Assembly: GCF_020905345.1 (NCBI RefSeq)
Contig: NZ_JAJJMO010000001.1
Span: forward strand, 4,216,001 to 4,280,000
From: Flavobacterium pisciphilum
Lineage (GTDB): Bacteria > Bacteroidota > Bacteroidia > Flavobacteriales > Flavobacteriaceae
DNA length: 64,000 bases
Reading direction: 5' to 3'
Of the stretch, positions 24,871 through 46,755 are shown one piece after another. The translations under genes were made by a program, and so were the position numbers. The notes beneath the pieces were generated by a model. That model was not told the DNA's origin. It worked only from the letters and a program-made list of their open reading frames with translations, and searched no databases. Every line of letters starts with the position of its first letter. The first letter of the stretch is position 1.

Positions 24871-24887
24871 AGCAATATTTTTAGTTT

Positions 24888-26165: not shown

Positions 26166-26169
26166 GATA

Positions 26170-26652: not shown

Positions 26653-26665
26653 AATCAGTAGTTTA

Positions 26666-27286
26666 TTATTTTCTGTTTTCAGTGCCTAAATCCCGATTCT
26701 CAATGGTATTCCATCGCTCGATTAAAAAACCATGGGGATTGTTGTCACTTCGCGATACATTGCGAAGATTGCCTTCCGTTATAAGGTTCCGATGGGCAAT
26801 GCTGGTGGTACGGATGATATTTTGAGTAGCATAACATCGGAACCCATACGGATAGGTATTGATGTCAATGGTTATACTGTCAATTTTTATCGTCTGGCTG
26901 ACATTCCCTGATATGATACCGGAGTAATAGCCGTTTTCTTTTAAATCATCGTAGATCCTTTTGGCACTGTCATCAGCTAGATAAAGTGCCTTGGTAACAT
27001 TACTTTTGATTACTTTATCATCGGGATCAAGAGTAAAGAAGAATTGGTGAAACGTCTTTACATGGTCTCGTGCCTCAATAGGTATGTTGTCTTTTCGGTC
27101 CGAAGTATAGGCTTCTAATGCTTTTCCATTAGCCAGTATGTAAACCTTGTTCTGCATTTGAGATACTAGGGAAAAACTTTTGTAAAGGGAGAAACAACTA
27201 ATTAAAATGCAACCAACAATTACCAGTATTGTAAAGCCACGAACATGGCGAAAGGCAGTGTCAATATTTTTCATTTTACTAAACAT
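26666..27286 (-). CDS. traK: Conjugative transposon protein TraK
   Basis: A 206-residue protein with an N-terminal membrane helix (about 18-38, FTILVIVGCILISCFSLYKS) and a periplasmic domain with FHQFFFTLDPDDKVIKSNVTKALYLAD and YYSGIISGNVSQTIKIDSI. These match the TraK (VirB8-like) assembly factor of Bacteroides elements. It sits between traJ and the TraL-position gene in canonical order. Confidence 0.9.
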   Translation of the reverse strand: MFSKMKNIDTAFRHVRGFTILVIVGCILISCFSLYKSFSLVSQMQNKVYILANGKALEAYTSDRKDNIPIEARDHVKTFHQFFFTLDPDDKVIKSNVTKALYLADDSAKRIYDDLKENGYYSGIISGNVSQTIKIDSITIDINTYPYGFRCYATQNIIRTTSIAHRNLITEGNLRNVSRSDNNPHGFLIERWNTIENRDLGTENRK

Positions 27287-27304
27287 GCTATTTTTATTTA
27301 GAGG

Positions 27305-28501: not shown

Positions 28502-28517
28502 AAGAGTGAATATTTAG

Positions 28518-29147
28518 TTATTTAATGAACATGTTGCGAATCGCATTTACATCATTGCGCTCCTTGGCTCGTTGCAAAGCCAGTACTGAAGTATTGTTGT
28601 TGAAGTTTCTTAGGAACATAAGCTTGTCTTGCATATCTGCATATATCTTGTCAATGGAAGCTAACCTCTCATCATCAGACATCCGCATTTTATTTGCGGT
28701 AACTACCGAAGTAAGTTCATCAAGATTTCTAAGGCTCTGTTTAAACAGATTATCATATACTCTTTCGAGATAAGCGATTTCATCAGCATTGAAATTTTTA
28801 CTATCCCGAAAACGACCAAAGGCAGATTTGTATTCTTTAACCAATTGCACCTGATAAGTGACAATATCTCCGATTCGCCTGTAATTTCTGACCGTGGGAC
28901 TAACTTGCATGAGCGCATCAAGGAACGTTTCATGTAGACTGAAATTTCCTTTGGATAAATCTTTCACCGTATTATACCCACCGCTAAGCATTTCATAGCC
29001 TTTTTTCATATCCTTTAGAATCTGTTTGAACTGGCTCAGTTTCTCAATGTTCAGAATCAATTGCTGGATTTCTTGTTTTTGGGCCGTTAGCTTGGAAGGG
29101 AGTAGTAAAACAATAAATGCAATCCCTATAATCAGTATTTTTTTCAT
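28518..29147 (-). CDS. TraI-like exported protein (paralogue 3)
   Basis: A 209-residue protein with a signal peptide (residues 1-22, ending KLTAQ) and a helical body: KKGYEMLSGGYNTVKDLSKG, NFSLHETFLDALMQVSPTVR, YLERVYDNLFKQSLRNLDEL and MRMSDDERLASIDKIY. It shares the GDEVxYxxRVxxxLxxxxxxNxDEL...MSDDERLxxID pattern with the genes at 29154 and 29786. Databases often label such proteins TerB-like because of a weak match, but context says transfer module. Probably a VirB5-like periplasmic pilus or channel component; this is an inference. Confidence 0.75.
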   Translation of the reverse strand: MKKILIIGIAFIVLLLPSKLTAQKQEIQQLILNIEKLSQFKQILKDMKKGYEMLSGGYNTVKDLSKGNFSLHETFLDALMQVSPTVRNYRRIGDIVTYQVQLVKEYKSAFGRFRDSKNFNADEIAYLERVYDNLFKQSLRNLDELTSVVTANKMRMSDDERLASIDKIYADMQDKLMFLRNFNNNTSVLALQRAKERNDVNAIRNMFIK

Positions 29148-29153
29148 GATATA

Positions 29154-29771
29154 TCAGTTTATGCCGCGCAAGGCACGGCTGATTTTTGCTTCTTTCAACT
29201 CCTTGGTTTTTGATAAAGCCATCAGTTTAGTTTGATTACCAAAACCCTCAGAGAAAGTGTAGTTATCGAGCATGTTTTGGTAGATAGTATCAATGCGTTT
29301 CATTCGCTCGTCGTCTTTCAACTCTAACTGTCCGTCCGAAATAAGTATCAATAGTTCATCCATATTGGTATCACAATTTTCAATCAACCTTTCAAATACC
29401 CTTTGGATATAATCAACTTCATCGCCGTGGAATAAATCATCCTGTTGGATTTGCCTGTACAAGCTCTTGTAGCTTTTTATGATTTTTAACTGAAGAGCTA
29501 TAATTTCAGTTACCCTTGCATACTTTTTAATTTTTGGATTGACCTGCTTGAGCGATGTGAGATAATCACCATGAAGATTAAATTCTCCACGCTTAAAATC
29601 TGATATTGCACCCAGTCCTTTTTTGGCTACCGAATAGCCTTTTTGAGCATATCCGATATACGTTTGAAGTGCCGCTATTTGCTGTAAAAGCATCCTTTGT
29701 TGTTTGGCCTGTGCATGAATATTTCCCTTAAAGAATCCTAATAAGAGAAACATAAAAAATATCTTTTTCAT
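29154..29771 (-). CDS. TraI-like exported protein (paralogue 2)
   Basis: A 205-residue protein with a signal peptide (residues 1-20, ending NIHAQA). It is helical throughout, with AQKGYSVAKKGLGAISDFKRGEF, NPKIKKYARVTEIIALQL, VDYIQRVFERLIENCDTNMD and LKDDERMKRIDTIYQNML. It has the same length and layout as the gene at 28518, so the two are likely duplicates within the operon. Start and stop spacing (6 bases to the next gene) shows co-translation. Confidence 0.75.
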   Translation of the reverse strand: MKKIFFMFLLLGFFKGNIHAQAKQQRMLLQQIAALQTYIGYAQKGYSVAKKGLGAISDFKRGEFNLHGDYLTSLKQVNPKIKKYARVTEIIALQLKIIKSYKSLYRQIQQDDLFHGDEVDYIQRVFERLIENCDTNMDELLILISDGQLELKDDERMKRIDTIYQNMLDNYTFSEGFGNQTKLMALSKTKELKEAKISRALRGIN

Positions 29772-29785
29772 GATTTTTTGATTTA

Positions 29786-30475
29786 TTACGGAATTCCGTA
29801 AAATTTCTTAACCGAATTGACATCATGCTGTGTTTTGACCCTTTGAAGACTCAGCATTATATTCTGTCTGTTGAAGAGTGTCAGGTCATTATAATTAGTC
29901 TCGATTTGATCCGCAGCAGCATTTATAATTTCCAATCTCTTGGCATCACTCATCTGTGTGGTAAATGAATCCAATACCAAGAAAATCTGGTCGATATTTT
30001 TTAGACTTTCATTTAATATCCCAGAATAAACCCTTTGCATATAATCCAATTCGCTTGCATTAAAATGAGCATCTTTTTGAAACAAGTTCCATGCTCTTTC
30101 ATATTCGTCGACTAATCGAATTTGTTTTTGACTAATATCTTTGATACGCTGGTAATAGGTAATAATGGATTTGACTTTTGCGAGCTCTTCATAATACTCT
30201 TTGTAGAGGTCTTTTTGTTTCTGGGTCCAATCGGAAATCTCATCCAGTTTTAGTTTGGATAAAATATTTTCTATTTTCTTCTGCGCATTCTGAAGCCAGA
30301 TGGTTTTGTTTTGCAGTTTTTGTATCCTAAGGTCAATAGCCTTAATTACCTTTTTCGCAACTGCTTTTACCATTTCTAAAATTGGTATTGCCGCGACTCT
30401 TTCTGCTGGTCGGGTAGGAGTGCTTATCAGTAAAAAGCACAAGAGGCAGATTGTAATTTTCTTTTTTGCTTTCAT
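29786..30475 (-). CDS. traI: Conjugative transposon protein TraI (DUF4141-like)
   Basis: A 229-residue protein with an N-terminal hydrophobic segment (about 7-20, ITICLLCFLLISTP) and a Lys-rich helical body. The C-terminal half (SELDYMQRVYSGILNESLKN, QMSDAKRLEIINAAADQIET, QRVKTQHDVNSVKKFYGI) is the same fold pattern as the two following genes. Extra helices (about 40-100) precede it. Its place just after traG is that of TraI in Bacteroides transfer operons. Confidence 0.82.
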   Translation of the reverse strand: MKAKKKITICLLCFLLISTPTRPAERVAAIPILEMVKAVAKKVIKAIDLRIQKLQNKTIWLQNAQKKIENILSKLKLDEISDWTQKQKDLYKEYYEELAKVKSIITYYQRIKDISQKQIRLVDEYERAWNLFQKDAHFNASELDYMQRVYSGILNESLKNIDQIFLVLDSFTTQMSDAKRLEIINAAADQIETNYNDLTLFNRQNIMLSLQRVKTQHDVNSVKKFYGIP

Positions 30476-30487
30476 AATTAGTATTGT

Positions 30488-32962
30488 TTAGTTTCCATTT
30501 CTCAAATCAATAGCAAGTGCAGCAATACCTTTTCGGATGTCACCATCAAACTTTTTGGCATACGCTTGTACTTTTACTTTTTCGGTTTCTTCGGTGGTAT
30601 AGGCGAGATATTCTTCCAGCGATACTTCAGTGCGGTAGACTTTCGATTGCATGCCCCCAAGTGAGATAAACACTTCTTTGTATTTTTTATAAGGGGCATT
30701 GGCTTTGTTTACTGAGAGTACCAGTGCTTTCTCTTTTTCGGTAAGTCCAAGTAATTCTTGTATTTGCTCGAACTTATTTTGGTACTTGCTCTGATCCAGT
30801 AATATCTTGCAATCACTATTATTAATAATCGCTTGCTTGACTACCGGAGAAGAGATAATATCCTCTACTTCCTGAGTGACTATAATGGCTTCACCAAAGA
30901 ATTTACGAACGGTCTTAAACAAATACTTAATGTATTCCGCCATACCTTCTTTGGCTATAGCCTTCCATGCTTCTTCAATAAGTATCATTTTTCGAATGCC
31001 TTTTAGTTTACGCATCTTGCTTATGAATACTTCCATGATGATGATAGTCACTACTGGAAAGAGTATTGGATGGTCTTTGATATTATCGAGTTCAAAAACA
31101 ATAAAACGTTCTTTCAATAGATCCAGATTCTCGGTAGCATTGAGCAGGTAATCAAATTCACCTCCTTTGTAATACGGACGTAAGACATACAGGAAATTGT
31201 TCACATCAAAATCCTTTTCTTTTACTTTATCACCCTCCAATATGGTTACAAAATCATCTTTTAGAAATTCGTAAAAGCTGTCAAAACAGGGAAATAAAAC
31301 GGAATTACCATCTAACTTTTCGTAGTACAATTGAAGTGCATTGGATAATGCTACATACTCACTTCGATTGAAAGTTTCATTGTCTTTTTTCCAAAGAGCT
31401 AGTAATAATGTTTTAATGCTTTCTTTTTTTTCAGTATCCAGTATATCACCATCACTGATATAAAATGGGTTGAATCGAATTGGATTCTTTTCATCATAAG
31501 TAAAATAATATCCACCCACCATATCACATAATCCTTTGTAACTGTGCCCCACATCAACCAATACAACATGAGTTCCTTGTTCGTAGTAACTTCTCACCAT
31601 ATGGTTGGTGAAAAAGGATTTACCACTTCCTGATGGCCCCAGTATAAATTTGTTCCGATTGGTACAAATCCCCATTTTTACAGGTTCATCACTAATATCT
31701 ACATGAACAGGCTTTCCTGTCAAACGATCTCCCAAACGAATTCCAATTGGACTAAGAGAAGAGCGATAACCAGTTTCTAAATTCAAAAAGCAGACAGCTT
31801 GTTCTATGAAGGTATCGAAGGTGTCGTTCATTGGGAAATCTGCGGAATTCCCAGGAATACCTGCCCAAAAAATCTGAGCTGCTCCCACAGTTTCTTGTTT
31901 AGCAGCTGCATCCATCTGAGCCAGTGCTGAAAAAACTTTATTCTTCAGGTCTTTGAGTTCTTCTTTGTTATCTGTCCAAATCAATACATTAAAATGGGCT
32001 TTTGCAGGAAGGCGTTGCTGACCGATAGCTTCATTAAGAAAATCATTAGTGGCATCACGCGCAATAAGGTTCTCTCTGCTGTAGGCTGATAAGGATTGTA
32101 AACGCAGTCTTTTACTCTCTAGTTTCTGCAGGGTTTTCTGGAAATCCTCTATAAAAATGTACTGGTTGTAAATGTGGTTGCAGGATAATAATTGACCAAG
32201 TGTGGAAGCAAATCCGATGCTGAACTTGGTCTTATCGGTAGAATAGCGGTCGTAGTTAATTCTAGAACCACATAGAGCAGGCAGGTCGGCAGCATCACCT
32301 AAAGAATAAATTTGGCAATGCTTGTCTCCAACCTGCAAACCATCATCGAAAGCAATATCCTTAAATACAAATGAATTTTCCTTTTCAGAAAGGAAACAAT
32401 ACTTTTCTATAATCCCAATCTTTCTACTGTGGCTTCGAAGGTCATCATTTCCCAGACGAGTTAGTTTCACAAAACCACTGTCTTCCAATATGCGTCTGAA
32501 TTGTCCAGTGCTATCAATAAAATCCTGACGTAATTGCGTTTTTAATGTTTCTTCCGGAACAATGGAAGTTCTCAGTAAATTCGAGAATAAGGAACTGGAG
32601 GTTTTCCTACCTGCTGGTTTTTTGGTCAGGAAAATATAACACGAATGATCCAGAAATGGACGTTCATTAAAAAAACGCTCACTGCTTCGGGTTAAAAAAC
32701 TTGAGTCTTCACTTGTGAAATCGGGCTCAAACTTACTGTCTATAAACCAGTCTTGTTTGTGGAACACACTAAACTTAGGAAGCAACTTTATGGCTTTAAG
32801 CCATGCTTGATGGAACGCTTCGTATTCCTGATCAGACAAAGTAAATATCTCAGGCAGTTCTGCCTTGAATACCACCGTTACATCTCCTTGTTTGGACAGG
32901 ATACAATCGTGCTCTACATCCATAATCGGTAAAATATCATCTATCATCTTTTCCATCTTCAT
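30488..32962 (-). CDS. traG: Conjugation ATPase TraG (VirB4-like)
   Basis: An 824-residue ATPase. Walker A is GPSGSGKS (about residue 440) and Walker B is MILIEEAWKAI (about 660), with downstream FFGEAIIVTQEVEDIISSPV typical of VirB4/TraG ATPases. It has the N-terminal TraG_N-type half (MIDDILPIMDVEHDCILSKQG). It powers assembly of the mating channel at the inner membrane. It is between the unknown 285-residue protein and the TraI genes. Confidence 0.95.
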   Translation of the reverse strand: MKMEKMIDDILPIMDVEHDCILSKQGDVTVVFKAELPEIFTLSDQEYEAFHQAWLKAIKLLPKFSVFHKQDWFIDSKFEPDFTSEDSSFLTRSSERFFNERPFLDHSCYIFLTKKPAGRKTSSSLFSNLLRTSIVPEETLKTQLRQDFIDSTGQFRRILEDSGFVKLTRLGNDDLRSHSRKIGIIEKYCFLSEKENSFVFKDIAFDDGLQVGDKHCQIYSLGDAADLPALCGSRINYDRYSTDKTKFSIGFASTLGQLLSCNHIYNQYIFIEDFQKTLQKLESKRLRLQSLSAYSRENLIARDATNDFLNEAIGQQRLPAKAHFNVLIWTDNKEELKDLKNKVFSALAQMDAAAKQETVGAAQIFWAGIPGNSADFPMNDTFDTFIEQAVCFLNLETGYRSSLSPIGIRLGDRLTGKPVHVDISDEPVKMGICTNRNKFILGPSGSGKSFFTNHMVRSYYEQGTHVVLVDVGHSYKGLCDMVGGYYFTYDEKNPIRFNPFYISDGDILDTEKKESIKTLLLALWKKDNETFNRSEYVALSNALQLYYEKLDGNSVLFPCFDSFYEFLKDDFVTILEGDKVKEKDFDVNNFLYVLRPYYKGGEFDYLLNATENLDLLKERFIVFELDNIKDHPILFPVVTIIIMEVFISKMRKLKGIRKMILIEEAWKAIAKEGMAEYIKYLFKTVRKFFGEAIIVTQEVEDIISSPVVKQAIINNSDCKILLDQSKYQNKFEQIQELLGLTEKEKALVLSVNKANAPYKKYKEVFISLGGMQSKVYRTEVSLEEYLAYTTEETEKVKVQAYAKKFDGDIRKGIAALAIDLRNGN

Positions 32963-32993
32963 CTATCATTTACCTGTTAATTCAAACCATCAT

Positions 32994-33851
32994 CTAGAGT
33001 CTTTTTCCTCTTTTTGGGGGAGTCATGTCATTATCAAAAGTTTGTTTGTTGGAATGTTTTTTTACATCTAGCGGGCTTGTATAAGTAGACGCTTTCAAAT
33101 TTTTCTCGATTGGATAGTCCCTGATATAGGCTGAGTCTTCATGGCCATTGCGTCTTGCAAGTCCAACAGGATCCAGATATAAAAGATTAGGCAATTCTAC
33201 TCGGATAACATCCTTTGAGGATTCATTGCCTACTAGCTTTTGAAGTTTGGTGTCATATAGAAAATGATAAGCAAAGTCTCCATCAAAAGAACCAATCTCA
33301 AAGTCTTTGAATTCCAATTTCACAAAAGCATCCTCCGCTAATCTCAGTTCTTTTAAGTTGAGATCTATGATAAAATCCTGTCCTGCGATATCAATATGAG
33401 GAAGGATTCCAGCTACCCGTTCCATGAAACCTTCATAATTGGGATTTAGAAACTCTAAGTCTGTTTTGTTTTTTAGACTTTCTATAGTAACTCCATACTT
33501 CTTTGCCATGCCTTCGGAATCTAAAATGAGCAAAGGCGGTATGTTGATATTGATAGTATCTTCAACTGAATCGAGTTGGCATGGAAAATTTTTATACTCA
33601 GAATGGTAACACATAGAGTAGTGGGTTCCGTGATCTTTCATATCACTGAAAGGAATCGTATTGGTAAGATTTGTTGTTTCGATTAATGCCTGACTATTGA
33701 TGTCTACATAAAAGCTTGTTCCTTCAATCTCATGAGTGGGTAATCTTTCCAGAGGAATAGTATTACTTGGATTCGCTGTTTCCACTATAGCCTGAGCGTT
33801 ACTATCAATGTGAAACTTGCAACCGGTAGTTATTGAAATTTCATTTTTCAT
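32994..33851 (-). CDS. Unknown protein with internal repeats, in the transfer operon
   Basis: A 285-residue protein with no signal peptide. Residues 10-32 and 46-68 or so are a near repeat: FHIDSNAQAIVETANPSNTI against FYVDINSQALIETTNLTNTI. A second pair is IPPLLILDSEGMAKKYG against LPNLLYLDPVGLARRNG, farther apart. The tail is basic (KGKRL at the end). It overlaps traF by 11 bases (33841-33851), so it is coupled to it. No known family recognised. It could be a cytoplasmic regulator or chaperone of the transfer system; this is speculation. Confidence 0.7.
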   Translation of the reverse strand: MKNEISITTGCKFHIDSNAQAIVETANPSNTIPLERLPTHEIEGTSFYVDINSQALIETTNLTNTIPFSDMKDHGTHYSMCYHSEYKNFPCQLDSVEDTININIPPLLILDSEGMAKKYGVTIESLKNKTDLEFLNPNYEGFMERVAGILPHIDIAGQDFIIDLNLKELRLAEDAFVKLEFKDFEIGSFDGDFAYHFLYDTKLQKLVGNESSKDVIRVELPNLLYLDPVGLARRNGHEDSAYIRDYPIEKNLKASTYTSPLDVKKHSNKQTFDNDMTPPKRGKRL

Positions 33852-34179
33852 TTGGTGTGTTTTTAGAAAAGTTCATGAATATTTTTCTACTCTGGGATTT
33901 CACTGCTTTAGGAATTTGTCGTTTTGCTAGCGCTTTCATCATACCAAATTCTCCGTATTGATGGCTCATTTTGTATATTTTTAAAACCCATAATGTTCCC
34001 GAAACACCAATTATTCCAATGCAGATAAATGAAGGTAAACCTGCTATATACATAATCGCAAACAGTATCATTAAAGCAATTACTCCCCCACCCAAATACC
34101 AGATATATTGTGCCTTCAGTCCCTTAAACTCGATGCTTTGGTTGATTCCTTTGTTGATTTGATAGACACTATTTGACAT
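33841..34179 (-). CDS. traF: Conjugative transposon protein TraF (DUF4133)
   Basis: A 112-residue protein with two adjacent membrane helices (about 27-47 and 51-68, WYLGGGVIALMILFAIMYIA and FICIGIIGVSGTLWVLKIY), a polar N-terminus (YQINKGINQSIEFKGLKAQY) and basic tail. This is the standard DUF4133/TraF form (VirB3-like) of Bacteroides elements. It lies 10 bases after the methylase-helicase gene and just upstream of the 285-residue gene. Confidence 0.9.
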   Translation of the reverse strand: MSNSVYQINKGINQSIEFKGLKAQYIWYLGGGVIALMILFAIMYIAGLPSFICIGIIGVSGTLWVLKIYKMSHQYGEFGMMKALAKRQIPKAVKSQSRKIFMNFSKNTPNEK

Positions 34180-34189
34180 GGTGTTTGTT

Positions 34190-37100
34190 TTAAAATTTCA
34201 TCTTGTTACTTCGTCTGATTTCAGAAAAAGAGTTTTGCTGCCAGGTATCACTTTCTCTTTCTGAGACTGCAAAATGTTGGGATTCTTCACTACTCTTTAT
34301 CGGTAATTGAATTACTGGTACTGTATTAGTTGCTGTAGTTTCATCACTAATATTAACCTCTTGTGGATTTGCTTCTTTCAATTGGTTCACCTGAATTTTC
34401 AAGGCTATTTCTCTTTCCAAACTCGATAGGTCACTTTTCATTTGCTGCAACTCGTGTTCTTTACTAAAAGACTTTACAATTAATTTTTGCAATTCCGGCA
34501 GCTGATTTTCAATCTCACTTAAAGTTTTTTGGTATTTCTCCTTCAGATGTTCCACCCGGTCAATAGCATTTAGAAAATGACGGGCTGCTAGTTTTGGATT
34601 GTCCACATTCGGAGTTCCTCCATTGAATGTGTATTTAATACCATCCTCCAAACGTTGCGCATAAAAGCTGTTGGAATAGCGATACTGATACAAACCATCA
34701 TTTTGATAGGCTTCACGTTCTCTTTTTATATAAAGCCCAAAATCATATAACTTCCCAATCTGCTTGGCCTCATTTTCTCCTTCAGGAGGTTTCCAGTGTT
34801 TATAGAGTTCGATAATTTGTTTACCGATATTCTCAGAATCGGATGCTTTACAATCATATAACTGTATGGGATTCGCTTTAGAGCCATCAGGTTCATATTT
34901 CAGATTCTTTTTGTACAAGCTATCATCAACAGTTAGCTTATCCAATGTTTTGGTAATGACCATCTTTTCCTCCAGTAAGTATTCCACCTGATATTTAGTT
35001 CTTGAAATTTCTTTGTAATGTGCTTTTTTAAGGCTTTCCATCACGGCAACTTTTTTCTCCAGTTTTGATTTTTCCAGTAAAGAAGTATCTCCTGAGAGAA
35101 CTGCGATATATTCCGAAAAATTCATTCCGCTTTGCTCATCCATTGCGCCCTCATCAATAGATCTTACATTCAGTTCACAATTTTTCATCTGACTGATAAA
35201 AGTCTGTTTGTTCTTCAACAGATTGAACTTGTAATTATCCAATGATTGCTCAGTGGCGTAGATGAAATTCTTTACCTTATTATCATAATACTGTTTGGCA
35301 ACTTCGTTACCTTGTCTGCCACCTCGGCCATTGCGCTGTCCCAGATCTGACGGTCTCCATGGAATATCCAAATGATGCATGGCAACAACACGTTTTTGTA
35401 CATTCAGTCCAGTGCCTGCTTTTTCGGTGCTACCTAACAGAATGCGTATTTCACCAGTATTCATTTTGTAAAATAGTTGTGCTTTCTTTTTATCCGTCCA
35501 ATCGTGGATATAGGTGATTTCATGGGCAGGAATATTAAAATCTGCTACCAGTTTATCTTTAAGGGCATCGTACATATTGAAGGCATCTGGTTTAGGAGTC
35601 CCGATATCTGAAAAGACAATCTGTGTCCCTTTGTGTATAACCGAAGCATGGTACATTTCAGCCACATTTCGGGCGCATGTATTGACTTTATTATCGGGAT
35701 GATCTGCGTACCCTTCATCTATGAGTCTCATATCAGCAGCCATTTTTTTAGCGTAATTAGTGGCTATCAACATTCTTCCGCGATCTTCCTCTCTGGTGAG
35801 AGGTGCTCTTCCGATAAGTGTCGCATTACCGGTTTTCGCAAACTGCATGAGTTTGATAATAAACTCACTTTGCTGGGGCGTAGGGCTAATATTGACAAGT
35901 TGTTCCTCAATTTCAGGTTTGTCCAGATCAATATGTTTTGCGGTTTTATAATCGGTAATTTCATTATAGAATAATGCTAGTTCCGGAACTTTAATAAAAT
36001 GACGAAAACGCTCTTTGGCAATAATTTCATTGGTGACCGAAAATTCAAAATCGGTCGTCTTTCTGGCAAAAACAGATGCCCAGCCGTCAAAATTTTCAAT
36101 ACGCTGGCGTTCCATTTCTTTTGGACGCAGGTATTTGAAAAGCAAATACATTTCGGTTAGGCTATTGGAAATAGGGGTGCCAGAAAGAAAGGTCACACAC
36201 AGATCTGAATCAAATTTCTCTTGAAGGGTGCGTACAGCAAATAACATATTAAGTGCCTTTTGGCTTCCTTGCATATTTCCAATTCCGGCAACACGATCAT
36301 GACGGGTAGTAAAGGTTAGATTCTTGAATTTATGTGACTCATCTACAAACAAATGATCGATACCCATTTCTCTAAAGTTAATTCCACTGTCTTTTTTATC
36401 TTCTATGTCACTCAGTACCTTTTTTAGCTTACCATCGAGATTATTTTTTCGTATCTCAAGACCTTTTAATATTTTTTTAGAGATATCACCTCCCAAATCT
36501 TTTGCCGTATCAAGATCCCTTTCTACATTGTCAAGCTCATTTTGTAAAATCTCTTTTTGGATTTCGGCAGATTGTGGAATTTTGCCAAATTGATCGTGCG
36601 TTAAAATGATGCAATCCCAATTGTTGTTTTTGATTTCATGGAAAAGTCTCATTCTTTTAGCAGGAGTAAAATCATTTTCGCCGGGAGCTAGTATTCGAGC
36701 ATTCGGATAGGCCTTGCGATAGGTCGTTGCAATTTGGTCAACATTGGCATGCAGTGCCAGTATTGCAGGTTTGTGGATAATTCCCAATCGTTTCATTTCA
36801 TTGGCAGCCACAATCATGGTTAGTGTTTTGCCGAGTCCAACTTCATGATCGATTAAAGCGCCACGGTTCTGAATGATACGCCAGGCAGCATTTTTTTGAG
36901 AACTGTATAAATCTTCGATTTCAAGAGCCTTTTTATCCAAACCCGGAAAACTCAAATGACTTCCGTCATACTCACGTAATACATAACAGTTGAACGTATT
37001 GTTATAGAGACTTTCCAATTCATTCTTTTCACTCACGGGTAATTCCTGCAACCATTCAATAAATCCATTACGGATGTTCTCGATTTTTTGATGTGCTAAT

Positions 37101-39760
37101 TGAATGGCTTCATTGTCGGGCAACCGTATAGGTTTGCCTGCCGGTCCATCTACTTCATAAGTAAAAAACGGAGCCGTGTTTTCAAGTGCATGTTCTAATA
37201 TGGTATAACCATAAGTGGTTCTTCCACTTTTTGGAGTTACAGCAAATTCCCTGTCGATTTTGGTATTATGTCCTGCGCTCACTTTAAAGGTATCCAGCGA
37301 AGGGAAATAACTAATTTCAGTTGTCTGATCGAATAGCTGCCCTGCAAAATTTTCATAGTAATGCATCGGTATCCATCGTTCGCCAAGATTAAAATCTAGT
37401 AATTCAAAAGGGATACGCTCAGGCTGTACCTTTTCCAGTGCCTGCATTCCTTTATAATACTGTGTATTTTCAGGATACTGTTGTACTGCCTGTTTAGCCT
37501 GCTGCCATTTTTCCACAACATTACCACTTAGATACAAATCTGAGGTTTCCCAATCTTGGTGTATCGGGTTGAGATAAATATGATGGTTTAAACTTTCTAT
37601 TGCCTCGTTTTCTTCAAGCCCGGTTGCAGCAGTTATAAATCCTAAATCGACAACTCCTTTTTCATTCAGACTGCGGGCTAATGCTTCAATTGGATCATCT
37701 GTGTAATAACGTTCCTGTTGTTTTACTACAGATTCACTTAGGATATCGGACTTCACATATCGTTCCCCTTCTTTGCGTTCCAGTGAAGACAGTACAGTAA
37801 ATCCAAAAGCGGAATCCTGCATGATTAGCCTGCGATTCTCAGCGCTGTTCAAAATACCATAGTGAGAAACAAACTTTGTATAGTGCTTATCCAGATTTTC
37901 CCGGATTTCCTTACTTGCAGCTTGACCTGACTGTTCATTTTCAAATAGCTCTAAATAATTATCCCGAATAGTGATATAGGAATCGTAAAATTTTAGATTG
38001 CTTTGTAATACTAAAGGTTGGAAAAAAGCTTGTTTGTGCTCGCTGTTGATGTCACTTATAATTCCTATAGCTTCTCCAAGCCTAACCAATGTTCCTTCTT
38101 TATAGAAAGGTTTGAATGAAGCAACTTCTTCATAAAGTCTTTTTTCAAGGTTAAAAGCAGGTTCAAGTGTTCTATCTCCTTCATATACATAGGCGTGGTC
38201 ATATTGCTGAAGAGTATTGGACAGCGCCAACAGTTCGTGAGGCAATAATCCGCCATTCATCCAATTGGCTGAAAAACCATCAATTTCTTTTACATTAGAA
38301 TATAATTTATAGAAGTACCGATTGGACTTGTTTTGTTTGGCGGTAATAAGTACCGCATTTTCATGTGATGGATTATCTTGTGTGCGGATTGTACTGAGTA
38401 TTCTTGCCGTTTTTTTATCTACTACAGTTTCATCGAGCGGATTGATATAATCCATCGCACGGTTAATATTCTCTGCTGGTACTGTATCGAACAATCCAAG
38501 CTGAACGGAGATACCACTTGCTATACTTTCTGGCATAGGTAAGTAGGTGAATTTTTTTCCGGATATTTCAGGTTGCTGAACAATACCTGATTTTTGAGAC
38601 AACACAAAACGCTCTAAACTGAAATTATTTTTTAGCCCACTAGTAATATTTTGTGCCAGAGGATTTGCAATAGAATTAATGTCACCACTTTGTCTGACAC
38701 TTTGATGCGCCTGTCCATATTGATTTTTACCGGCGAACAATTCATCTCCAATTATGAGTTCTGGTCGATTGTGCTGGTATTTATTGGCATTGTATTTTCC
38801 AAACTCATTTTCCAGTTCAACAGTCTGTAGCAGCTCTTTTTCATTGTAAGACAATGTTTCTTTGTGTTCATTTTTCTGAACAATAAGTAAATGATTTGGC
38901 GCATCTGTATTACCAGTTTCTTTCATCAGGTTATCAGGCATGACAGCCACACTCATAAAATCTGCATTTTGGAAAAGATACTCCCGTACACTCTGATTCG
39001 AAGGACTATTTAAAAAACCGTCTGTTGTGATGTAAGCCATAAGACCACCATTAGCGAGCTTATCCAGTCCTTTTGCAAAGAAATAATTATGAATTTTTCC
39101 TGAAATTGCTTTATCAGGATAGGCTGCATCATAAACTGAAAAATTACCAAAGGGAATATTGCTCACTACAAGATCATAACTGCCATTATCATTTGTGGGT
39201 GCTTCCTCAAATCCTATGATATGAGTGGTACTTTTTGTTGTCAGCGTACTGTTTAATACCGAAAGAAGCAAACCGCTCAATCTGTCTTTTTCGACAGCAG
39301 TAATTTGTTCCAAATTTGGAAAAGTCTTGTCTGCTTCAGTGATAAAAATACCTGAACCTGCTGATGGTTCGTATAATCTTTTGGGACTAATACCTTGTTC
39401 TTGCAAAACAGTGTACAGGGTTTTGGGTACAATCTCTGGAGTGTAAAATGCCGTTAGTACACTGTTGCGTAGCGAAGAAACAATCCCATTATAATCCTTT
39501 TCAGAATTGTGTTCCTGTAATAATTCGTGCAGACGAATCATCTCTGAATGTAGTTTCAAATCTTCGTTAGTAGCTCCCGATTTAATCCAATCTTCGGCAG
39601 TACCATTAGGGTATAATACAGCTTTGATACCTCCAAAGCCAGCGTATGCCTTAAGTGTCGCAATAGCTTCTTCCGATAAAATATCACCTTGCTGCCATTG
39701 CATTGCAATGATAATTGCCTCGATATTGGTACTTAGTTTTTGGGATAGATTGTACACCAT
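34190..39760 (-). CDS. Giant N6-DNA methylase and SNF2-type helicase protein
   Basis: An 1856-residue protein. The N-terminus has a Bacteroidota-element marker [14 protein letters not shown] (39-51). The methyltransferase part has the SAM motif EPSAGSG (131-137) and the catalytic motif NIPF (201-204, in place of NPPF/Y). The helicase part shows HEVGLGKT (about 970), DESHKF (about 1140), LSGTPISNS and the late motif [12 protein letters not shown]. Proteins of this type occur in conjugative elements and phages and resemble P1 DarB-type antirestriction proteins. A role protecting incoming DNA is likely but unproven. The 3' quarter (about 1500-1856) is helical and coiled coil. Confidence 0.88.
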
Positions 39761-40721: not shown

Positions 40722-41201
40722 TTAGTTCCATAACCCTTCTGCTTCCGCTTGGGTTACAGATACAGCGTCAAGTGTTTTGCACTCTGTCACAATCAGTTCA
40801 CTCACAGAAGAGCGAAAAGCAGAATCTTTTACGGATGGATATTCTCTTAGGAGGAGTTGCAGATAATAGGTAAATTCTTTTTTGACTAATTTTTTCTTTG
40901 CGGCATCAGTGATAAAACTTTTTAATCGTGCCACCAGCGCATCAACATCCTGAAAGGTGGTGTCAAATTCTCCAAACGTAGGTTGGCTTAAAGTAGGTGC
41001 AGGTGTCTCCTGATCGTTTTCTTCGGATTGAAAGTCTCCGTAATTTGGATCTCCTAATCTGCGGAATTGAAGTTTCCGTTTTCCTGAGATCACTTCTTTG
41101 AGATCATCAAAATAAAATCGAAATCCAACAAATAAATACCAACTTGTCAATAGCAGGATAACCACAACTATGTAATTACCCCATGAAATGTTTGTAAACA
41201 T
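40722..41201 (-). CDS. First gene of the transfer operon, membrane-anchored hypothetical
   Basis: A 159-residue protein with one N-terminal membrane helix (residues 9-31, NYIVVVILLLTSWYLFVGFRFYF), a charged stretch (KEVISGKRKLQFRRLGDPNY), an acidic linker (SEENDQETPAPTLSQ) and a C-terminal helical domain (FQDVDALVARLKSFITDAA, REYPSVKDSAFRSSVSELIV). It is preceded by a rare strong GAGGAG Shine-Dalgarno-like box 4 bases before the ATG, unusual for Bacteroidota. Its role is unknown; its place at the head of the operon is shared by other flavobacterial elements as I recall. Confidence 0.75.
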   Translation of the reverse strand: MFTNISWGNYIVVVILLLTSWYLFVGFRFYFDDLKEVISGKRKLQFRRLGDPNYGDFQSEENDQETPAPTLSQPTFGEFDTTFQDVDALVARLKSFITDAAKKKLVKKEFTYYLQLLLREYPSVKDSAFRSSVSELIVTECKTLDAVSVTQAEAEGLWN

Positions 41202-41431: not shown

Positions 41432-41473
41432 AATTAGCAGATAAAAGGAATTATTTTAGGATAGTTTTTAGTT

Positions 41474-41499
41474 TGAAAATCCCACTAAATTTTCAAATG
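41474..41499. repeat. Perfect 9-base inverted repeat after the frameshifted gene
   Basis: TTTGAAAAT (41474-41482) and ATTTTCAAA (41491-41499) flank CCCACTAA. It is just downstream of the gene at 41525, where a cassette-terminal repeat would be expected, but its sequence does not match the three repeats in the array. Confidence 0.6.
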
Positions 41500-41524
41500 G
41501 CTACGAAACTGTGTTACTAACAGT

Positions 41525-42324
41525 TTAAATTTGTATTATGTATATTTCTTTATTCCAAACTTGTATTTCATAATTATTGTACGTCTTCGCGTCTAACCAT
41601 AAATTGTCGTTTACTCTTTTTAAATCTTTCGTAAGTCTTTCTTTTACATTTTCAAGAAAGTGTTCGGTATAATGTAAGCGTTGGCAATATAATTTACCTT
41701 TTCCTTTTGAATAATCCAGATTATTTTTCTTAAAGTCTATATAATCTGTATAAATTCCCATTACATTAGGTGCACCTATAAATAGATTTTTCAAATCGTC
41801 AAACATTGATTTAACATCTAAAATATTAATTTTCTTGTTTGATGTTATACTTGGTTTAACTGTTTTGCCTACATTGTCTAATTTTTCAGAATATCTGTAT
41901 GTCTCTGCATTTCTTTCTAAAATTTTATTCAGTATTTCCAAAATTTTAAAATATTTATTGAACTCGTCTTTATCTTCTTTAGAGGCTTTAACTTGTTTGT
42001 GAAATCTGAAAAAAATATTTTGAATTCAGTTGATAAAGCTACTAAGTCGTGGCTTTTTAAAAGATGTGTCCAATTCTCAAATTTAGTAAGTTGCTTTGAC
42101 GTAACGTATTGTTCAAAAAACTTAATATTTTCTTTCAGTGCCAATTCAATAGCGTGTGCAATTGTAAATAGAAAAGGTTGTGCAATTTCGTCAAAACGTC
42201 TCTTGGTCCTTGAATATTCTTCAAAGAAAAAGTCAACCATTCTTTCGTATTGCCCCCAAATTTGAACATTGTCATAAGTCTGTCCAATGTATGTTACAAA
42301 TCGGTCTCTTTCGTTATTGTTCAT
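41525..42324 (-). pseudogene. Frameshifted helical protein gene (HEPN-like?)
   Basis: Two overlapping minus-strand frames (42324-41929 and 41941-41525) read as one protein if one base is added in an A7 run on the plus strand (42009-42015). In that case KIFFRFHKQVKASKEDKD joins smoothly through FNKYFKILEILNKILERN to the second frame, giving about 266 residues. As it stands the first frame ends in a short unrelated tail. The N-half has HAIELALKENIKFF and LLKSHDLVAL, a pattern reminiscent of HEPN-fold proteins, but this is weak. Either a real inactivating or phase-variable slip, or a sequencing error in a homopolymer. Confidence 0.7.
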
Positions 42325-42371
42325 TTTATCGTATGTATCTTAAAATTGTCCATAAAATTCTGTTTCTACGG

Positions 42372-42486
42372 GGAGCTATTAGACTAAATTAAGCCTATGT
42401 CGGATTTCTCAAATCATCCCAAATACAAAACCAACTCCTATTAAGCCAATTGCCCAAATCCGTTGCAGTGGCTGCTGGGCAATCGC
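42372..42486 (-). repeat. Cassette-terminal attC-like repeat 1
   Basis: On the minus strand this begins GCGATTGCCCAGC, then CAACGGATTTGGGCAATTGG, and goes on to GTATTTGGGATGATTTGAGA and AATCCG, ending near GGCTTAATTTAG. It starts 8 bases after the stop of the 42494 gene. The core order (ACGGATTT...TGGC...TTGG, TTTGGGATGATTTG, AAATCCG, GGCTTAAT) is shared with repeats 2 and 3. CGGATTT and AAATCCG can pair across the element. See the findings for why this looks like an integron attC site. Confidence 0.7.
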
Positions 42487-42493
42487 TTTTTTA

Positions 42494-43141
42494 TTATTCC
42501 ATTTTTTGGAATACGGTTTCTATTTTTTCTCTTAAATTTCTAATATGCTTATCAGAATTTTTAATTGATGGCTTTTCTTTTATTAAATTTAATTTTTGTG
42601 TAATTGTTCCAAGTTCATTTTCTTCAAATTCATACATTGAATTCCAATCTCCGGAATATTGCATTTCAAGATAGTTTAAATCTTCTCTTTCACTTATTAA
42701 TATAGACTTAACTTCGTCAAAATCTTTTATAGTTTTAGAAAACAACTCTTTAATTTCTGTTGGTAATAATATTTTTTCTCTTGCTAATTCATTTGCACAT
42801 TCTAAATAATTTTTTATCCACTCGTTTATACGATTCTTGAATTTTGTGTGTCCAATTGGATTTGGTTGATTGTTAAACAAAAGATTGTTTACAAGTTGAA
42901 AATTTGCTAACTGATGATATATTTTTCTTAAAGCGGTAATTTGTAATTCATTATATCTTGAAAATCTTATCTCGGATTTTTTCAATTCATTTTTAAAATT
43001 CTCAACTTTTTTTGTTACGATTAAAGTTTGAATTACTTGAAGTAAAGCAATGACAAATGTAAAAGCGATTAAAATTAAAAGATGATAATTTTTGTAGTCT
43101 GTAAAGTGTTTTTCTAATACCTGTTTTATTAAGTCTTCCAT
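42494..43141 (-). CDS. Cassette 1 protein: membrane-anchored, coiled coil
   Basis: A 215-residue protein. One membrane helix (about 18-39, NYHLLILIAFTFVIALLQVIQ) is followed by a long helical, charged body (ENFKNELKKSEIRFSRYNEL, LYNKIRN-like helices, NEWIKNYLECANELAREKI, EVKSILISEREDLNYLEMQY). The small N-terminal membrane anchor with a soluble helical domain is common among cassette and phage-defence proteins, but no family is recognised. It is followed at once by the attC-like repeat 1. Confidence 0.7.
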   Translation of the reverse strand: MEDLIKQVLEKHFTDYKNYHLLILIAFTFVIALLQVIQTLIVTKKVENFKNELKKSEIRFSRYNELQITALRKIYHQLANFQLVNNLLFNNQPNPIGHTKFKNRINEWIKNYLECANELAREKILLPTEIKELFSKTIKDFDEVKSILISEREDLNYLEMQYSGDWNSMYEFEENELGTITQKLNLIKEKPSIKNSDKHIRNLREKIETVFQKME

Positions 43142-43217
43142 TTTTTTATTTTTTATTGAGTTAAAAGTTCATCAATAAAAGTAAGATAAGTTCAATTCAG
43201 AAACACAATTAAAATGA

Positions 43218-43499
43218 TTAAAAAAACACCCAAAAAATATATTTTCCCTTTAATGTATAGACGTTGTGTTGTCGTTGGTAGCCTTTTTCATAGTAGTGTG
43301 TAAGTAGTACGATTATATATAGAGACCATAAGAATAAATTGTAAAGTATAATTAAAAAAACTTTTATTCTCTGTGGTCCAAATATTAAAGTTATAATTGA
43401 AGATGAACTAAAATGGCCACATATTTTTTTATATGAGTAATTGTATGTATTATAACTTAATATTCCTAAAAAGAAATATGTTTTAAACCAATCTTGCAT
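43218..43499 (-). CDS. Cassette 1 second protein, small membrane protein (93 residues)
   Basis: Two or three hydrophobic segments (SSSIITLIFG and VFLIILYNLFLWSLYIIVLL) with many Phe, Tyr and Ile, consistent with a small membrane protein or an AT-rich chance frame. It is between the 42494 gene and repeat 2 on the same strand. Kept with low confidence because it is alone in its interval and frame length exceeds chance in such AT-rich DNA only moderately. Confidence 0.4.
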   Translation of the reverse strand: MQDWFKTYFFLGILSYNTYNYSYKKICGHFSSSSIITLIFGPQRIKVFLIILYNLFLWSLYIIVLLTHYYEKGYQRQHNVYTLKGKYIFWVFF

Positions 43500-43744
43500 T
43501 TCAAAGTTAAAAATGGAAATAAAGCGTACTACTGGATATAAAAAAGGTTCTTATAACTTTAAAAAAATCTAAAGTTTTTAGAATAAATTCGCTCCATTTT
43601 ATCAATCCTGGAACTAAACTCTTTTCCAAAATTAATAAATCCAAACGCAGTCATTAAAGCATTAAAAGGAAACAGTATTTTATTTATTTTTTCTCTCATT
43701 AATTTTTTCTATTCTTCGTTTTTTTGCAAATTGTCGCCCAACTT
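43500..43744. other. Gene-poor stretch at the start of cassette 1
   Basis: The only frame is a short minus-strand one of about 31 residues (ATG near 43651, stop at 43559-43561, reading TAFGFINFGKEFSSRIDKME), possibly a decayed gene. The cassette boundary GTTGGGC on the minus strand is at 43744-43738. Confidence 0.5.
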
Positions 43745-43864
43745 TACTATAGTAGGGTTAAGATTAAATTAAGCTCATTATTTGGATTTGCAAAATAAAT
43801 CCCAAATACAAAAACAAGTTTCCAGTAAGCCGATTGCCAAAATCCGTTGTAGCTGTTATGTGAG
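43745..43864 (-). repeat. Cassette-terminal attC-like repeat 2
   Basis: On the minus strand it begins CTCACATAAC, then AGCTACAACGGATTTTGGCA, ATCGGCTTACTGG, TTTTGTATTTGGGATTTATT, TTGCAAATCCAAATAATGAG, CTTAATTTAATC. It starts 3 bases after the stop of the RES-domain gene. The internal pair GGATTT(T) with (C)AAATCC forms a stem. The end is adjacent to GTTGGGC (43744-43738), the start of cassette 1. Confidence 0.75.
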
Positions 43865-43867
43865 GTT

Positions 43868-44800
43868 TTATTTTGGCCTCCATGGTTCTTTACTCCACAC
43901 TAAATTTCCATTTGCATCACAACTCTCTATCTCATATGTAAAATAAGATTTAAAATCTGCCTTTTCAAAGTCAAAATCCAAACAGAGTGTTTGAATAGCT
44001 GTTTCAAATTTAATTTTATCATTTAGATTTTCCTCAAATAAAACATAATTATCTCCTGTGTACTTCATTGCTACACTTGGGTAAATTAAGCCGTCAAATT
44101 TTTTGTCAGAATGTTGTGGAGCAATTAAACCATTTGCATGTTTCAATCTACTTACATAGGAAGCACTCAATTTATAATCATGGTGTGTTCTTATATCAAT
44201 TTTTGAGAATTCATCACAAAAAAATTCCATAATTAAATCATTAACATCTAATGTTGTTGAGTCAATAATGTTATTTTCTCTAACGTGATTTTTATTTCCT
44301 TCTTTATATTTTTTAATATCTTCTCTGACATTAACGACAGAATTACTGTAATAAACTGGCGCTAAGTTTAAGTCTTTAGTCGTTTCCCAAACACTTATGG
44401 TAGTTAAACCAATTTCTTTTTTAGGATTGATTGATTTTTTCAGGCTCTGTAACACTTCAGCACATGCTAATTTTACATTTGATGAACAGTAGAAGATTGG
44501 TTCATGAGGTTTGTTTGCTCTACCATATTCGACTATGTTTTCCGGTTTGTTTATCCCTAACTCTGAAACATTATAAAAAATTTGGTTTTCATTATTTTTT
44601 CTAGCTCTAAATAATTTTGTTCCTTTAGGAATATGCCCGATTCCAAATGGTATCATATGGAAAACATCATCAATCATATTGTTAATGTCATCAATTTCAT
44701 ATTGACTTAAATCAAGAGATTGCAGTTTATTGATGAATGCTACCGCAGTTTCTTGATCTGGAAATCTGCTTTCAAAATCTACTATATTTAAATCTTTCAT
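43868..44800 (-). CDS. Cassette 2 protein: RES-domain protein
   Basis: A 310-residue protein. The RES domain has KLFRARKN (Arg65 and Arg67), YGRANKPHEPIFYCSS (92-107) and NVKLACAEV with Glu115, matching the Arg-Glu-Ser pattern from which the domain takes its name. RES toxins degrade NAD+. Here no antitoxin of the Xre type is adjacent; the N-terminal 50 residues (DLNIVDFESRFPDQETAVAF) are an extension, and the C-terminal half (about 170-310) is long for a toxin. A stand-alone RES protein may be a phage-defence effector; this is an inference. Confidence 0.85.
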   Translation of the reverse strand: MKDLNIVDFESRFPDQETAVAFINKLQSLDLSQYEIDDINNMIDDVFHMIPFGIGHIPKGTKLFRARKNNENQIFYNVSELGINKPENIVEYGRANKPHEPIFYCSSNVKLACAEVLQSLKKSINPKKEIGLTTISVWETTKDLNLAPVYYSNSVVNVREDIKKYKEGNKNHVRENNIIDSTTLDVNDLIMEFFCDEFSKIDIRTHHDYKLSASYVSRLKHANGLIAPQHSDKKFDGLIYPSVAMKYTGDNYVLFEENLNDKIKFETAIQTLCLDFDFEKADFKSYFTYEIESCDANGNLVWSKEPWRPK

Positions 44801-44836
44801 TATTTGATATGGTTGTGTTTTAAAATCTCGAATAAC

Positions 44837-44961
44837 GTTCTGGTAATCAGTGATTTTAGAATTAGATTAAGCCTTGTTTTCGGATTTGCCAAATCATCCC
44901 AAATGCAAATCCATTTTTCCATTAACCCAATCGCCAAAATCCGTTGTAGTAGCTGTTGTGC
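44837..44961 (-). repeat. Cassette-terminal attC-like repeat 3
   Basis: On the minus strand it begins GGCACAACAGC, then TACTACAACGGATTTTGGCG, ATTGGGTTAATGG, GGATTTGCATTTGGGATGAT, TTGGCAAATCCGAAAACAAG, GCTTAATCTAATT. It starts 15 bases after the stop of the phospholipase D-like gene. GGATTTGC and GCAAATCC form a perfect 8-base stem. The core is clearly related to repeats 1 and 2. The end is adjacent to GTTATTCGAG (44836-44827), the start of cassette 2. Confidence 0.75.
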
Positions 44962-44975
44962 CTTCTCTTTTTTAT

Positions 44976-45833
44976 TTATAATATTGGTTTTCTCATTGAT
45001 GTTTTTCCAAATGATTCTTTTCCAGTTCTATGGCAATAATTTTCTTTATAATCATAATTTGAAAAACTTTTCCAACTTTGGTATGAATAATCACAAAAAG
45101 GCATTTTAGGATTAAAAGTTATTTTTTGACCAGTTCTAATACAAAATCCATTAGTTGGTTTTTCAATTTCTCTTCTTGTTGGAATTTCTATTTCCTCAGA
45201 AGCCAAATGTAATTCAGATTTATAATCTAAAATTGTTTTGATTGCATTTCGATTGTTATTTCCAAATCCGGAATAAAATTTATCTGTTGTGTCAAGTAAA
45301 ATGTCTGATTTTACATAATTTTTCCCCAATATTAAACTTAATAATTTCTTTTGATATACAGGTCTTTTTACAAATACGGCTTCATTTTCTTCTGCAATTT
45401 TCCAACAAGTTTCCCAAGCATCTTTTTCAGTTTTGTTTGTTATTTTGTTTACGATATTAAGTTCTGAATAGATACCAAATTCAATATTGTTTTTAAATGA
45501 GTAATCATAAAGATTAACTGATGTAATTACACCTTTTTTTTCATTTCCATAATATTTTGCGTGTAAATTTGGAACATAAATGATACTAATATTTAGGAAT
45601 TTTTTAAAATATTCAAAATCATTTTTACTTAGACTTCGGCTTATATTATTTTCATTTTTTCCAAAAACAATTAAAATGTGTATTTTAGGATTGTTTAAAT
45701 GATTGTCAAATAATTTTTTAAAATAATCATCTAGTTTTATAAATGGAGAAACAATTAAAAGTGTTTCTTTTGTTTCCCAGATAATTTTAGATATGGTTTC
45801 TTCGAGTTCCAAACCCGTAATAAATTTACTCAT
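44976..45833 (-). CDS. Cassette 3 protein: phospholipase D-like with Cys-rich C-terminus
   Basis: A 285-residue protein. One HKD-type motif is visible: NLHAKYYGNEKKGVITSVNL with His91, Lys93 and Asn107, followed by Glu118. The N-terminus (residues 23-60, KETLLIVSPFIKLDDYF, IHILIVFGKN) fits the PLD fold. The C-terminal 65 residues hold a probable zinc-type element with CIRTGQK near residue 230 and YCHRTGK near 265. Many PLD-like nucleases of phage defence have a single HKD motif and dimerise; the tail pattern recurs in such proteins as I recall. Function in nucleic-acid cleavage is likely, not shown. Confidence 0.82.
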   Translation of the reverse strand: MSKFITGLELEETISKIIWETKETLLIVSPFIKLDDYFKKLFDNHLNNPKIHILIVFGKNENNISRSLSKNDFEYFKKFLNISIIYVPNLHAKYYGNEKKGVITSVNLYDYSFKNNIEFGIYSELNIVNKITNKTEKDAWETCWKIAEENEAVFVKRPVYQKKLLSLILGKNYVKSDILLDTTDKFYSGFGNNNRNAIKTILDYKSELHLASEEIEIPTRREIEKPTNGFCIRTGQKITFNPKMPFCDYSYQSWKSFSNYDYKENYCHRTGKESFGKTSMRKPIL

Positions 45834-46206
45834 TTTTTAATCTAATTTTTTCTGTTTTGTTTTGCGTTTCTGTTACTCGAAAGTGAAGCACAACTCGTTA
45901 ATATCAGCTATAAAATGGCATCAAACAACTTTTTTACTTGTCTTTGTGAAATAAGTTTCTTTTATTCAAGCGAATATAAGAAATCTTTTTACTACAATTT
46001 ATTAACTTTTGAATTAAAATAAAATGATTTCTACGTTTTATCTTGTTGAATTTTCTTTAGATCATATCATAGAATGGTTCACAAAGAGATTATTAAAGAT
46101 TAATAAATGGTAGACCCAAACATATTCAATTTGATACATTTCTGAGCCATGAAAGTATAAAAGTTTGTAATAGAATTTATGGTTGCCTAAGTAACTTTTG
46201 TATATT
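45834..46206. other. Gene-free stretch upstream of cassette 3
   Basis: On the minus strand the cassette boundary GTTGTGC lies at 45894-45888. The rest is AT-rich noncoding DNA, about 370 bases to the next gene. A 74-residue minus-strand frame at 46062-46286 overlaps the lipoprotein gene out of frame and is rejected. Confidence 0.6.
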
Positions 46207-46755
46207 CTAATAAGATAAAAATTCAATTTCCGATTTTTTATCCATAAGCTGCCAGCCATCATCTGTTCGTATAAAATAGACTTCATGAGTGAGTGTATCT
46301 TTCAATCCATTTTTAATGACAGCAGCAAAAATATTCTTTTTTCGAATCGTAGTGTATTCTACAATTGCCTTATTACCAGAACTCATAATCCGAATTCCCT
46401 TAATTGCTCCAAATTCTTCATCTGCTACTTTTACGCGTTGAATTTTAGATATTTTATCAGCAAGGGGTGTAGGCAGTAAGTATGGTTTTGCCGCAGAGGT
46501 AAAACTCACGAAAGAAATTGTATCACCAAATTTCTTATTTTGAAGCACTTTTACAAATCCTTTTTCGACAAGACCAGATTTAAAAATGGTGTACGCGTGT
46601 GCGGGATCATTGCAGTAAATATCATGGTCTACAATTGTAGGATAATGATTTTTTTCTAGAATAAGGGCAGTAGCCAATTTCTCATCTAGTTTTTTAGGTT
46701 GACAGCCTGTGATTATCAAAATTAACAAGGTCCAAATGCAGGATAGCTTTTTCAT
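46207..46755 (-). CDS. Lipoprotein of unknown function
   Basis: A 182-residue protein with a lipoprotein signal (LSCIWTLLILIITGC, Cys18). The rest is a compact beta-rich domain with DHDIYCNDPAHAYTIFKSGL, VSFTSAAKPYLLPTPLADKI and YFIRTDDGWQLMDKKSEIEF. No family recognised. It lies 30 bases after the 226-residue gene and may be co-transcribed with it. Confidence 0.72.
   Translation of the reverse strand: MKKLSCIWTLLILIITGCQPKKLDEKLATALILEKNHYPTIVDHDIYCNDPAHAYTIFKSGLVEKGFVKVLQNKKFGDTISFVSFTSAAKPYLLPTPLADKISKIQRVKVADEEFGAIKGIRIMSSGNKAIVEYTTIRKKNIFAAVIKNGLKDTLTHEVYFIRTDDGWQLMDKKSEIEFLSY

Follow-up and report, generated by a model that had tools for sequence, protein, structure and literature searches.

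The DNA analysed here (the window) is a stretch of 64 kb out of the 5.46-Mb genome of Flavobacterium pisciphilum, and its subject is an array of gene cassettes in which open reading frames (ORFs) are followed by repeats of about 130 base pairs (bp). The array appears to belong to an integron-type cassette system of the Bacteroidia that uses a recombinase other than IntI, and the window would hold an attI site and its cassettes, without the recombinase and in decay, within an integrative and conjugative element (ICE). On the sequence evidence, this reading is given a probability of about 0.87. The system is classed as an integron variant, because it is integron-like in all the sequence evidence yet falls outside IntI in the membership tests of that family.

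Three such repeats are found in the window, each immediately 3' of an ORF, and they look like attC-like recombination sites. All lie on the minus strand, as do the other window features given below. Cassette 3 (44836..45893; ORF 44976-45833, 285 amino acids) has its site at 44828..44961, cassette 2 (43742..44835; ORF 43868-44800, 310 amino acids, with a RES domain) at 43736..43865, and cassette 1 (42357..43741; ORF 42494-43141, 215 amino acids) at 42350..42481, the last with a mutated GTT. Matches to R1, a sequence model of the attC-like site, score 99.6, 88.8, and 90.5 bits, respectively. The same element is present at two further places in the genome (L008 and L009), and the attC-like sites of this genome are decayed.

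The preliminary description had claimed that each cassette start is complementary to the start of its own terminal repeat. This is the case for cassette 3, in which the start GTTGTGC (45894-45888) and the repeat GCACAAC (44961-44955) are complementary in 7 of 7 positions, and for cassette 2, in which GTTATTCGAG (44836-44827) and CTCACATAAC (43864-43855) are complementary in 8 of 10. For cassette 1, the complementarity of GTTGGGC to GCCCAGC (6 of 7) was correctly described, but the start had been placed at 43744-43738, two bases off its real position at 43742-43736. The starts also fit the neighbouring repeats less well, as had been stated: over 10 nucleotides the own pairings score 8, 8, and 7, and the cross pairings 4-6, with cassette 1 only weakly distinguished (7 versus 6 and 6). 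Among the six possible pairings, the own pairing ranks first, with a score sum of 15 (11 for the next, 5.3 for the null), and in 200,000 draws of GTT sites picked at random from the window, a sum this high came up at a frequency of about 1e-5.

For a larger test, 180 sites were obtained from 23 sources with the sequence model, and a hidden Markov model (HMM) was built from 139 of 150 aligned sites. Run on the stitched regions and the named ones, the HMM gave 247 sites and 204 consecutive pairs in 25 regions, pairs being kept only if limits of spacing and completeness were passed; some of the regions come from one genome (L067 with L073, L112 with L123, and the three from the genome of the window). 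Between the hexamer that follows GTT and the repeat of the same cassette, 5.07 of 6 positions match on average; the match is perfect in 133 of the 204 cassettes and covers at least 5 positions in 155. The controls are much lower: 2.86 of 6 between the two arms of the same site, 2.78 between a start and the next repeat (179 pairs), a mean of 2.56 and a maximum of 2.86 in 10,000 global shuffles of the partners, and a mean of 2.87 and a maximum of 3.21 in 5,000 shuffles within arrays. The rule that a cassette start and its terminal repeat come from one recombination site is true for most cassettes in other arrays, including those adjacent to attI. Starts that varied independently, or matched the upstream repeat equally well, would have spoken against it, and the same-site and next-repeat scores lie at about the shuffle level. 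Pairs with gaps of at least 1.2 kb score lower (3.71 of 6, n = 35, versus 5.35, n = 169), which may reflect missed sites in between.

For cassettes next to attI, 23 of 41 loci have, further downstream, a 9-mer perfectly complementary to the cassette start, where 0.87 would be expected. Among 172 cassette bodies, trimmed to their predicted starts and selected for an own-repeat match of at least 4 of 6, there are 42 homologous pairs; 18 of these align from the first base, which, given that selection, says nothing about the left boundary. Six cassettes of the G213 array (L064-L065) share the start GTTATGGTG, and the next detected repeat of each does not match it. The cassette may be present in several copies, or the profile may miss a type of site.

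For 165 sites, the site was joined again to the start of its own cassette, the arrangement expected in a circle. These rejoined sites form a hairpin in which the R arm has seven pairs and the L arm 14, and many of the pairs covary, being seen as GC, CG, AT, and TA. R-arm pairs are formed in 88% of the cells as compared with 52% in shuffles (maximum 55% of 1,000), and L-arm pairs in 94% versus 79%. The structure was derived from the same sites, and the level of pairing is biased toward it. That bias does not account for the contrast seen at R-arm positions 1-7, where pairing is 0.75-0.96 in the rejoined form and 0.39-0.80 in sites standing in the array. The sites are imperfect hairpins in which structure is conserved over sequence, as in integrons, and the DNA folding energy favours the bottom strand only slightly (-24.3 versus -21.5). 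The single mismatches and the asymmetric spacer are reminiscent of the extrahelical bases and spacer of attC. Sites of other sequence and like architecture were recognised by eye in L116, L125, and L128 (Lutibacter).

In relatives, a 347-amino-acid tyrosine recombinase (L059:5436-6479, minus strand) lies upstream of the arrays, and the region of about 105 bp 3' of its stop codon, on the same strand, is a conserved attI-like site. It contains a TAnnTTTG motif, inverted repeats that differ among species, and TATATACAAGTT or a similar sequence. The crossover pattern stands directly behind the recombinase gene in 83 of 98 unique loci; the motif, a candidate promoter element reading into the array, occurs in 55 of these 83 as compared with 27 of 533 background stretches. 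Unrelated cassettes start at the attI GTT in relatives: in 50 locus pairs whose attI regions are at least 85% alike, the median identity beyond GTT is 0.60, and the random level is 0.59. In other families of the class, an attI-like end was recognised by eye in 15 of 20 loci, and an exact ten-base partner is found downstream in 4 of the 20.

A profile built from 51 attI regions of other genomes has an nhmmer match in the window that runs from 45986 to 45889, up to where cassette 3 begins (15.6 bits, E = 6.3e-4). A second match is in L009, positions 2409-2499 (34.5 bits, E = 8.6e-10), and the bias terms of both are large (16.1 and 14.4). The next match is the opposite strand of the same place in L009 (E = 0.0043), and the others have E > 1. 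The window match (45889..45986) is taken as a decayed attI, the GTT crossover of which (45892..45894) is the start of cassette 3.

Several further observations concern attI. The arms of its inverted repeats vary by species with their symmetry kept (GTATGA/TCATAC, GCGAA/TTCGC, AGCCAT/ATGGCT), and the recombinase, changing along with them, may bind there. In L081, L121, and L165, GC-rich hairpin DNA lies right behind the attI GTT or its place, and pieces of it are shared, for example AAACCATCGTTGCTTTCGCACGACGTTCTC in L081 and L165. This DNA is possibly a mobile element, or a cassette without an ORF, aimed at attI. Among the genes behind attI in L165 (Chryseobacterium plasmid NZ_CP041688.1) is ltrA (18765-20081), which encodes the reverse transcriptase of a group II intron.

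The flanks of the window array belong to an ICE. Its conjugation part (22134..39760) includes TraG, TraJ, and TraM, all matched above the profile cut-offs (TIGR03783, 1159 bits; TIGR03782, 452 bits; TIGR03779, 330 bits). Twelve sister ICE regions were compared. The flanking gene on the attI side (46207..46755, 182 amino acids) has orthologues in eleven of them, being missing in L233, and that on the opposite flank (40722..41201, 159 amino acids) in all twelve. The site is empty in L232, L235, and L240, in which the blocks that end at window 41466-41469 and 46203 are 2-5 bp apart; comparison of these block ends gives 41470..46202 as the entire insert. L239 is nearly empty at this place (176 bp), and L238 and L233 have other DNA there.

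The segment 45892..46202 is a leader with an attI-like site that is common to sister ICEs by DNA similarity; its sequence is TTATATTCGC where the promoter would lie and ATTAACGAGTT at the crossover. In L229, L230, L231, and L234, the similarity extends through the attI piece and stops at window 45891-45893; in L236 it reaches 45906, and in L237 it is only partial. Behind the attI piece, attC-like sites are found in L229, L230, L231, and L236, and the site search gave no match in L234 and L237. The start rule at the ICE attI is exact in L229 and followed in 4 of 6 positions in L231. The ICE with the empty site L232 is in a genome in which the recombinase is present.

The recombinase of the relatives is 75-84% identical in genomes G154 and G168, and orthologues at E ≤ 1e-70 are present in 140 of 299 sampled genomes of the genus; an R1 match to the attC-like site is found in 185 of the 299. 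In the class Bacteroidia, relatives of the recombinase occur in 160 of the 345 genomes and in 96 of the 177 genera. The hosts among 54 loci include records of Flavobacterium, Lutibacter, Pedobacter, and Algoriphagus, some of them contigs of metagenome-assembled genomes that are possibly misbinned, and two Chryseobacterium plasmids carry the recombinase at 67% identity. R204, H294, R297, H320, and Y329, the catalytic residues of the family, are invariant in 25 rows of the alignment. By sequence, the recombinase is closest in the PDB to 4a8e, a XerC-like protein, and 5hxy, a XerA, and the structure model has a mean predicted local distance difference test score (pLDDT) of 79.5 and a predicted template modelling score (pTM) of 0.52.

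These proteins bear on whether the array belongs to a canonical integron of the IntI family, or is a plain cluster of attC sites lacking integron integrases (CALIN) derived from one, that is, a known system in another phylum. In its attC-like and attI-like sites and its cassettes, the system has the features of an integron; sister classes commonly have canonical IntI, with 105 of 395 genomes of the phylum above the TIGR02249 cut-off; and the recombinase stands at the cut-off of NF040815 (219.9 and 220.5 bits, cut-off 220), a family named 'tyrosine recombinase/integron integrase' by NCBI. Against these points, TIGR02249 is above its cut-off in none of the 299 genus genomes, nor in the window's own genome, and the recombinase is below the cut-offs of TIGR02249 (198 and 212 of 265 bits) and NF011946; recombinases with 108-128 bits adjoin several arrays in the genus genomes. 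The IntI-specific insert, present in the four IntI rows displayed in the alignment, is absent from the complete Bacteroidia recombinase rows displayed there. Compared with IntI, the recombinase has an extra N-terminal domain of about 65 amino acids; both end in SPxDxL. In a tree of 53 proteins, IntI forms a separate clade (20 rows, support 100/100) and the Bacteroidia rows, with one Algoriphagus row among them, stand elsewhere (98/97); the deeper forks, at which the two groups would join, are weak, with flagged long branches. The integrase gene of an integron is usually divergent from its array, with known exceptions, whereas the recombinase gene here is collinear with it. A canonical integron is an unlikely source of the array.

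A less probable, though still favoured, extension of the non-IntI reading is that the system represents a second, class-wide integron class, comprising XerA-like Bacteroidia recombinases without the insert, folded attC-like sites, and attI behind the recombinase's own gene. Such recombinases would either never have had the IntI-specific insert or have done without it. The ICE attI platforms, having no recombinase, would be loaded in trans and moved by conjugation.

The repeats might also be elements resembling miniature inverted-repeat transposable elements (MITEs), or terminators or RNA elements, that are copied around behind genes with no exchange of cassettes. They are indeed dispersed, structured, and situated behind single genes. 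Against this, the start and own repeat covary from one cassette to the next, unrelated genes start at one attI base, and a scan of window 40000-48000 against Rfam, with E up to 1, matched no family of RNA element. This explanation is very improbable. The idea that the units are small transposons bounded by terminal inverted repeats, suggested by the complementary sequences on both sides of every unit, deserves almost no credence, because the complementary arm is set back from the end of the unit by about 130 bp and differs among units, the units abut in a single direction, and fixed inverted repeats are not found at both unit ends.

Under the preferred reading of an integron-type system with a non-IntI recombinase, a cassette would be a circle with one site, in the order R''-stem-R', and recombination between G and TT of GTT would open the circle. 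The first cassette bases (TTNNNNN) would thus keep their pairing origin with the arm NNNNNAAC of the own terminal repeat. The sites would fold as single strands. In relatives, the recombinase would catalyse the insertion of cassettes at attI right behind its own gene and in the same orientation. In the window, the attI in the ICE would have received its cassettes through a recombinase supplied in trans or by an earlier host, and attI and cassettes would now be decaying.

Several results count against this reading. No recombinase orthologue is found in the window's genome, in which the best match is XerD-like (121-142 bits), and pieces of the gene sought at window 45801-47600 gave chance-level matches only. 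The genomes of L229, L230, L231, and L236 likewise have only XerD-like matches (140-149 bits). Thus, the ICE platform has no recombinase of its own, nor do the five host genomes have one; the decayed sites of the window fit this absence from ICE and host, and loading of the ICE attI would have taken place in trans or in earlier hosts. The start rule at the ICE attI is not seen in L230 and L236, and 18 of the 41 attI-proximal starts have no exact partner. The attI score in the window (15.6 bits) is low, with a strong composition bias. Automatic scoring of seven pairs in the own genome gave 3, 1, 4, 4, 4, 0, and 5 of 6, the zero being a register error at cassette 1, where placement by hand gives 5 of 7 beyond GTT. 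Finally, recombinase and sites co-occur only weakly across the genus: with strict cut-offs, the two sets number 121 and 112 genomes and overlap in 61 (odds ratio 2.5, p = 1.6e-4), and with loose cut-offs, they number 185 and 140 and overlap in 92 (odds ratio 1.36, p = 0.23). A model of one site type, together with arrays that have no recombinase, would weaken such a link.

The longest ORF lies in the array direction in 181 of the 204 cassettes and in the opposite direction in seven, and sixteen have none. The cassette 2 protein has its RES domain by Pfam PF08808 (39.3 bits, cut-off 23.2), the cassette 3 protein shows a weak similarity to DrmC (PADLOC, E = 4.2e-5), and the cassette 1 protein has no Pfam match above the cut-off. 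In G168 and G109, five of ten cassette proteins are above the Pfam cut-off (HTH_3, Trypsin_2, DUF7003, Fic, and HNH). One cassette of the own genome aligns over 465 bp, with 83.7% identity, with the cassette next to attI in Flavobacterium sp. LC2016-12.

Beyond cassette 1, a remnant of a further cassette (41525..42324) has two overlapping ORFs in different frames. Behind this frame-broken cassette, at the ICE-side end of the array, a possible truncated attC-like site of another type (41470..41524) was recognised by eye from its resemblance to a site in L091. At the own-genome array at 3.82 Mb (L008), two copies of one stretch, at about 3850-3890 and 6470-6520, flank the array, each with a terminator and, as judged by eye, an apparent 3' part of a tRNA.

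No description of such a system in Flavobacterium was found in the literature searched, the scope of which excluded preprints and most subscription journals. Bacteroidetes are nearly empty in integron surveys, with In0 elements and one complete integron in Salinibacter according to one (PMC9024848). A recombinase without the IntI-specific domain would escape tools that search for it (PMC9668308). Sedentary chromosomal integrons are alike in having attI beside the recombinase gene, one-direction arrays of single-ORF cassettes, folded attC sites with covarying R and L arms, a GTT crossover, and a start paired with its own R''; the present system differs in its insert-less recombinase outside the IntI clade, the collinear gene, and the extra N-terminal domain. 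The window resembles a CALIN in having three attC-like sites, at least two being needed, and no integrase in the genome, and is unlike one in that the array retains an attI remnant and sits in an ICE. As in conjugative transposons of Bacteroidetes with tra genes of the CTnDOT type, TraG, TraJ, and TraM are present, and the window ICE additionally bears the platform of attI and cassettes.

XerA and the 'integron-like' simple tyrosine recombinases (PMC8138268) are alike by the best PDB matches. The same paper describes an 'integron-like' subgroup in which the insert is not fully conserved, yet is essential for integron function; here, insert-less recombinases sit at what look like working integrons. 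If the system works, the need for the IntI insert in integron recombination could be tested by a natural counter-case. A 2026 paper on Riemerella anatipestifer (PMC13148043) reports uptake, independent of homology, of a gene together with exactly 27 bp of leader and a 140-bp tail that folds like attC; it leaves the uptake mechanism open and names no recombinase or integron. The two cases are alike in a leader and an attC-like tail without flanking homology, and the present system, if it works, is a candidate mechanism that could explain the Riemerella uptake.

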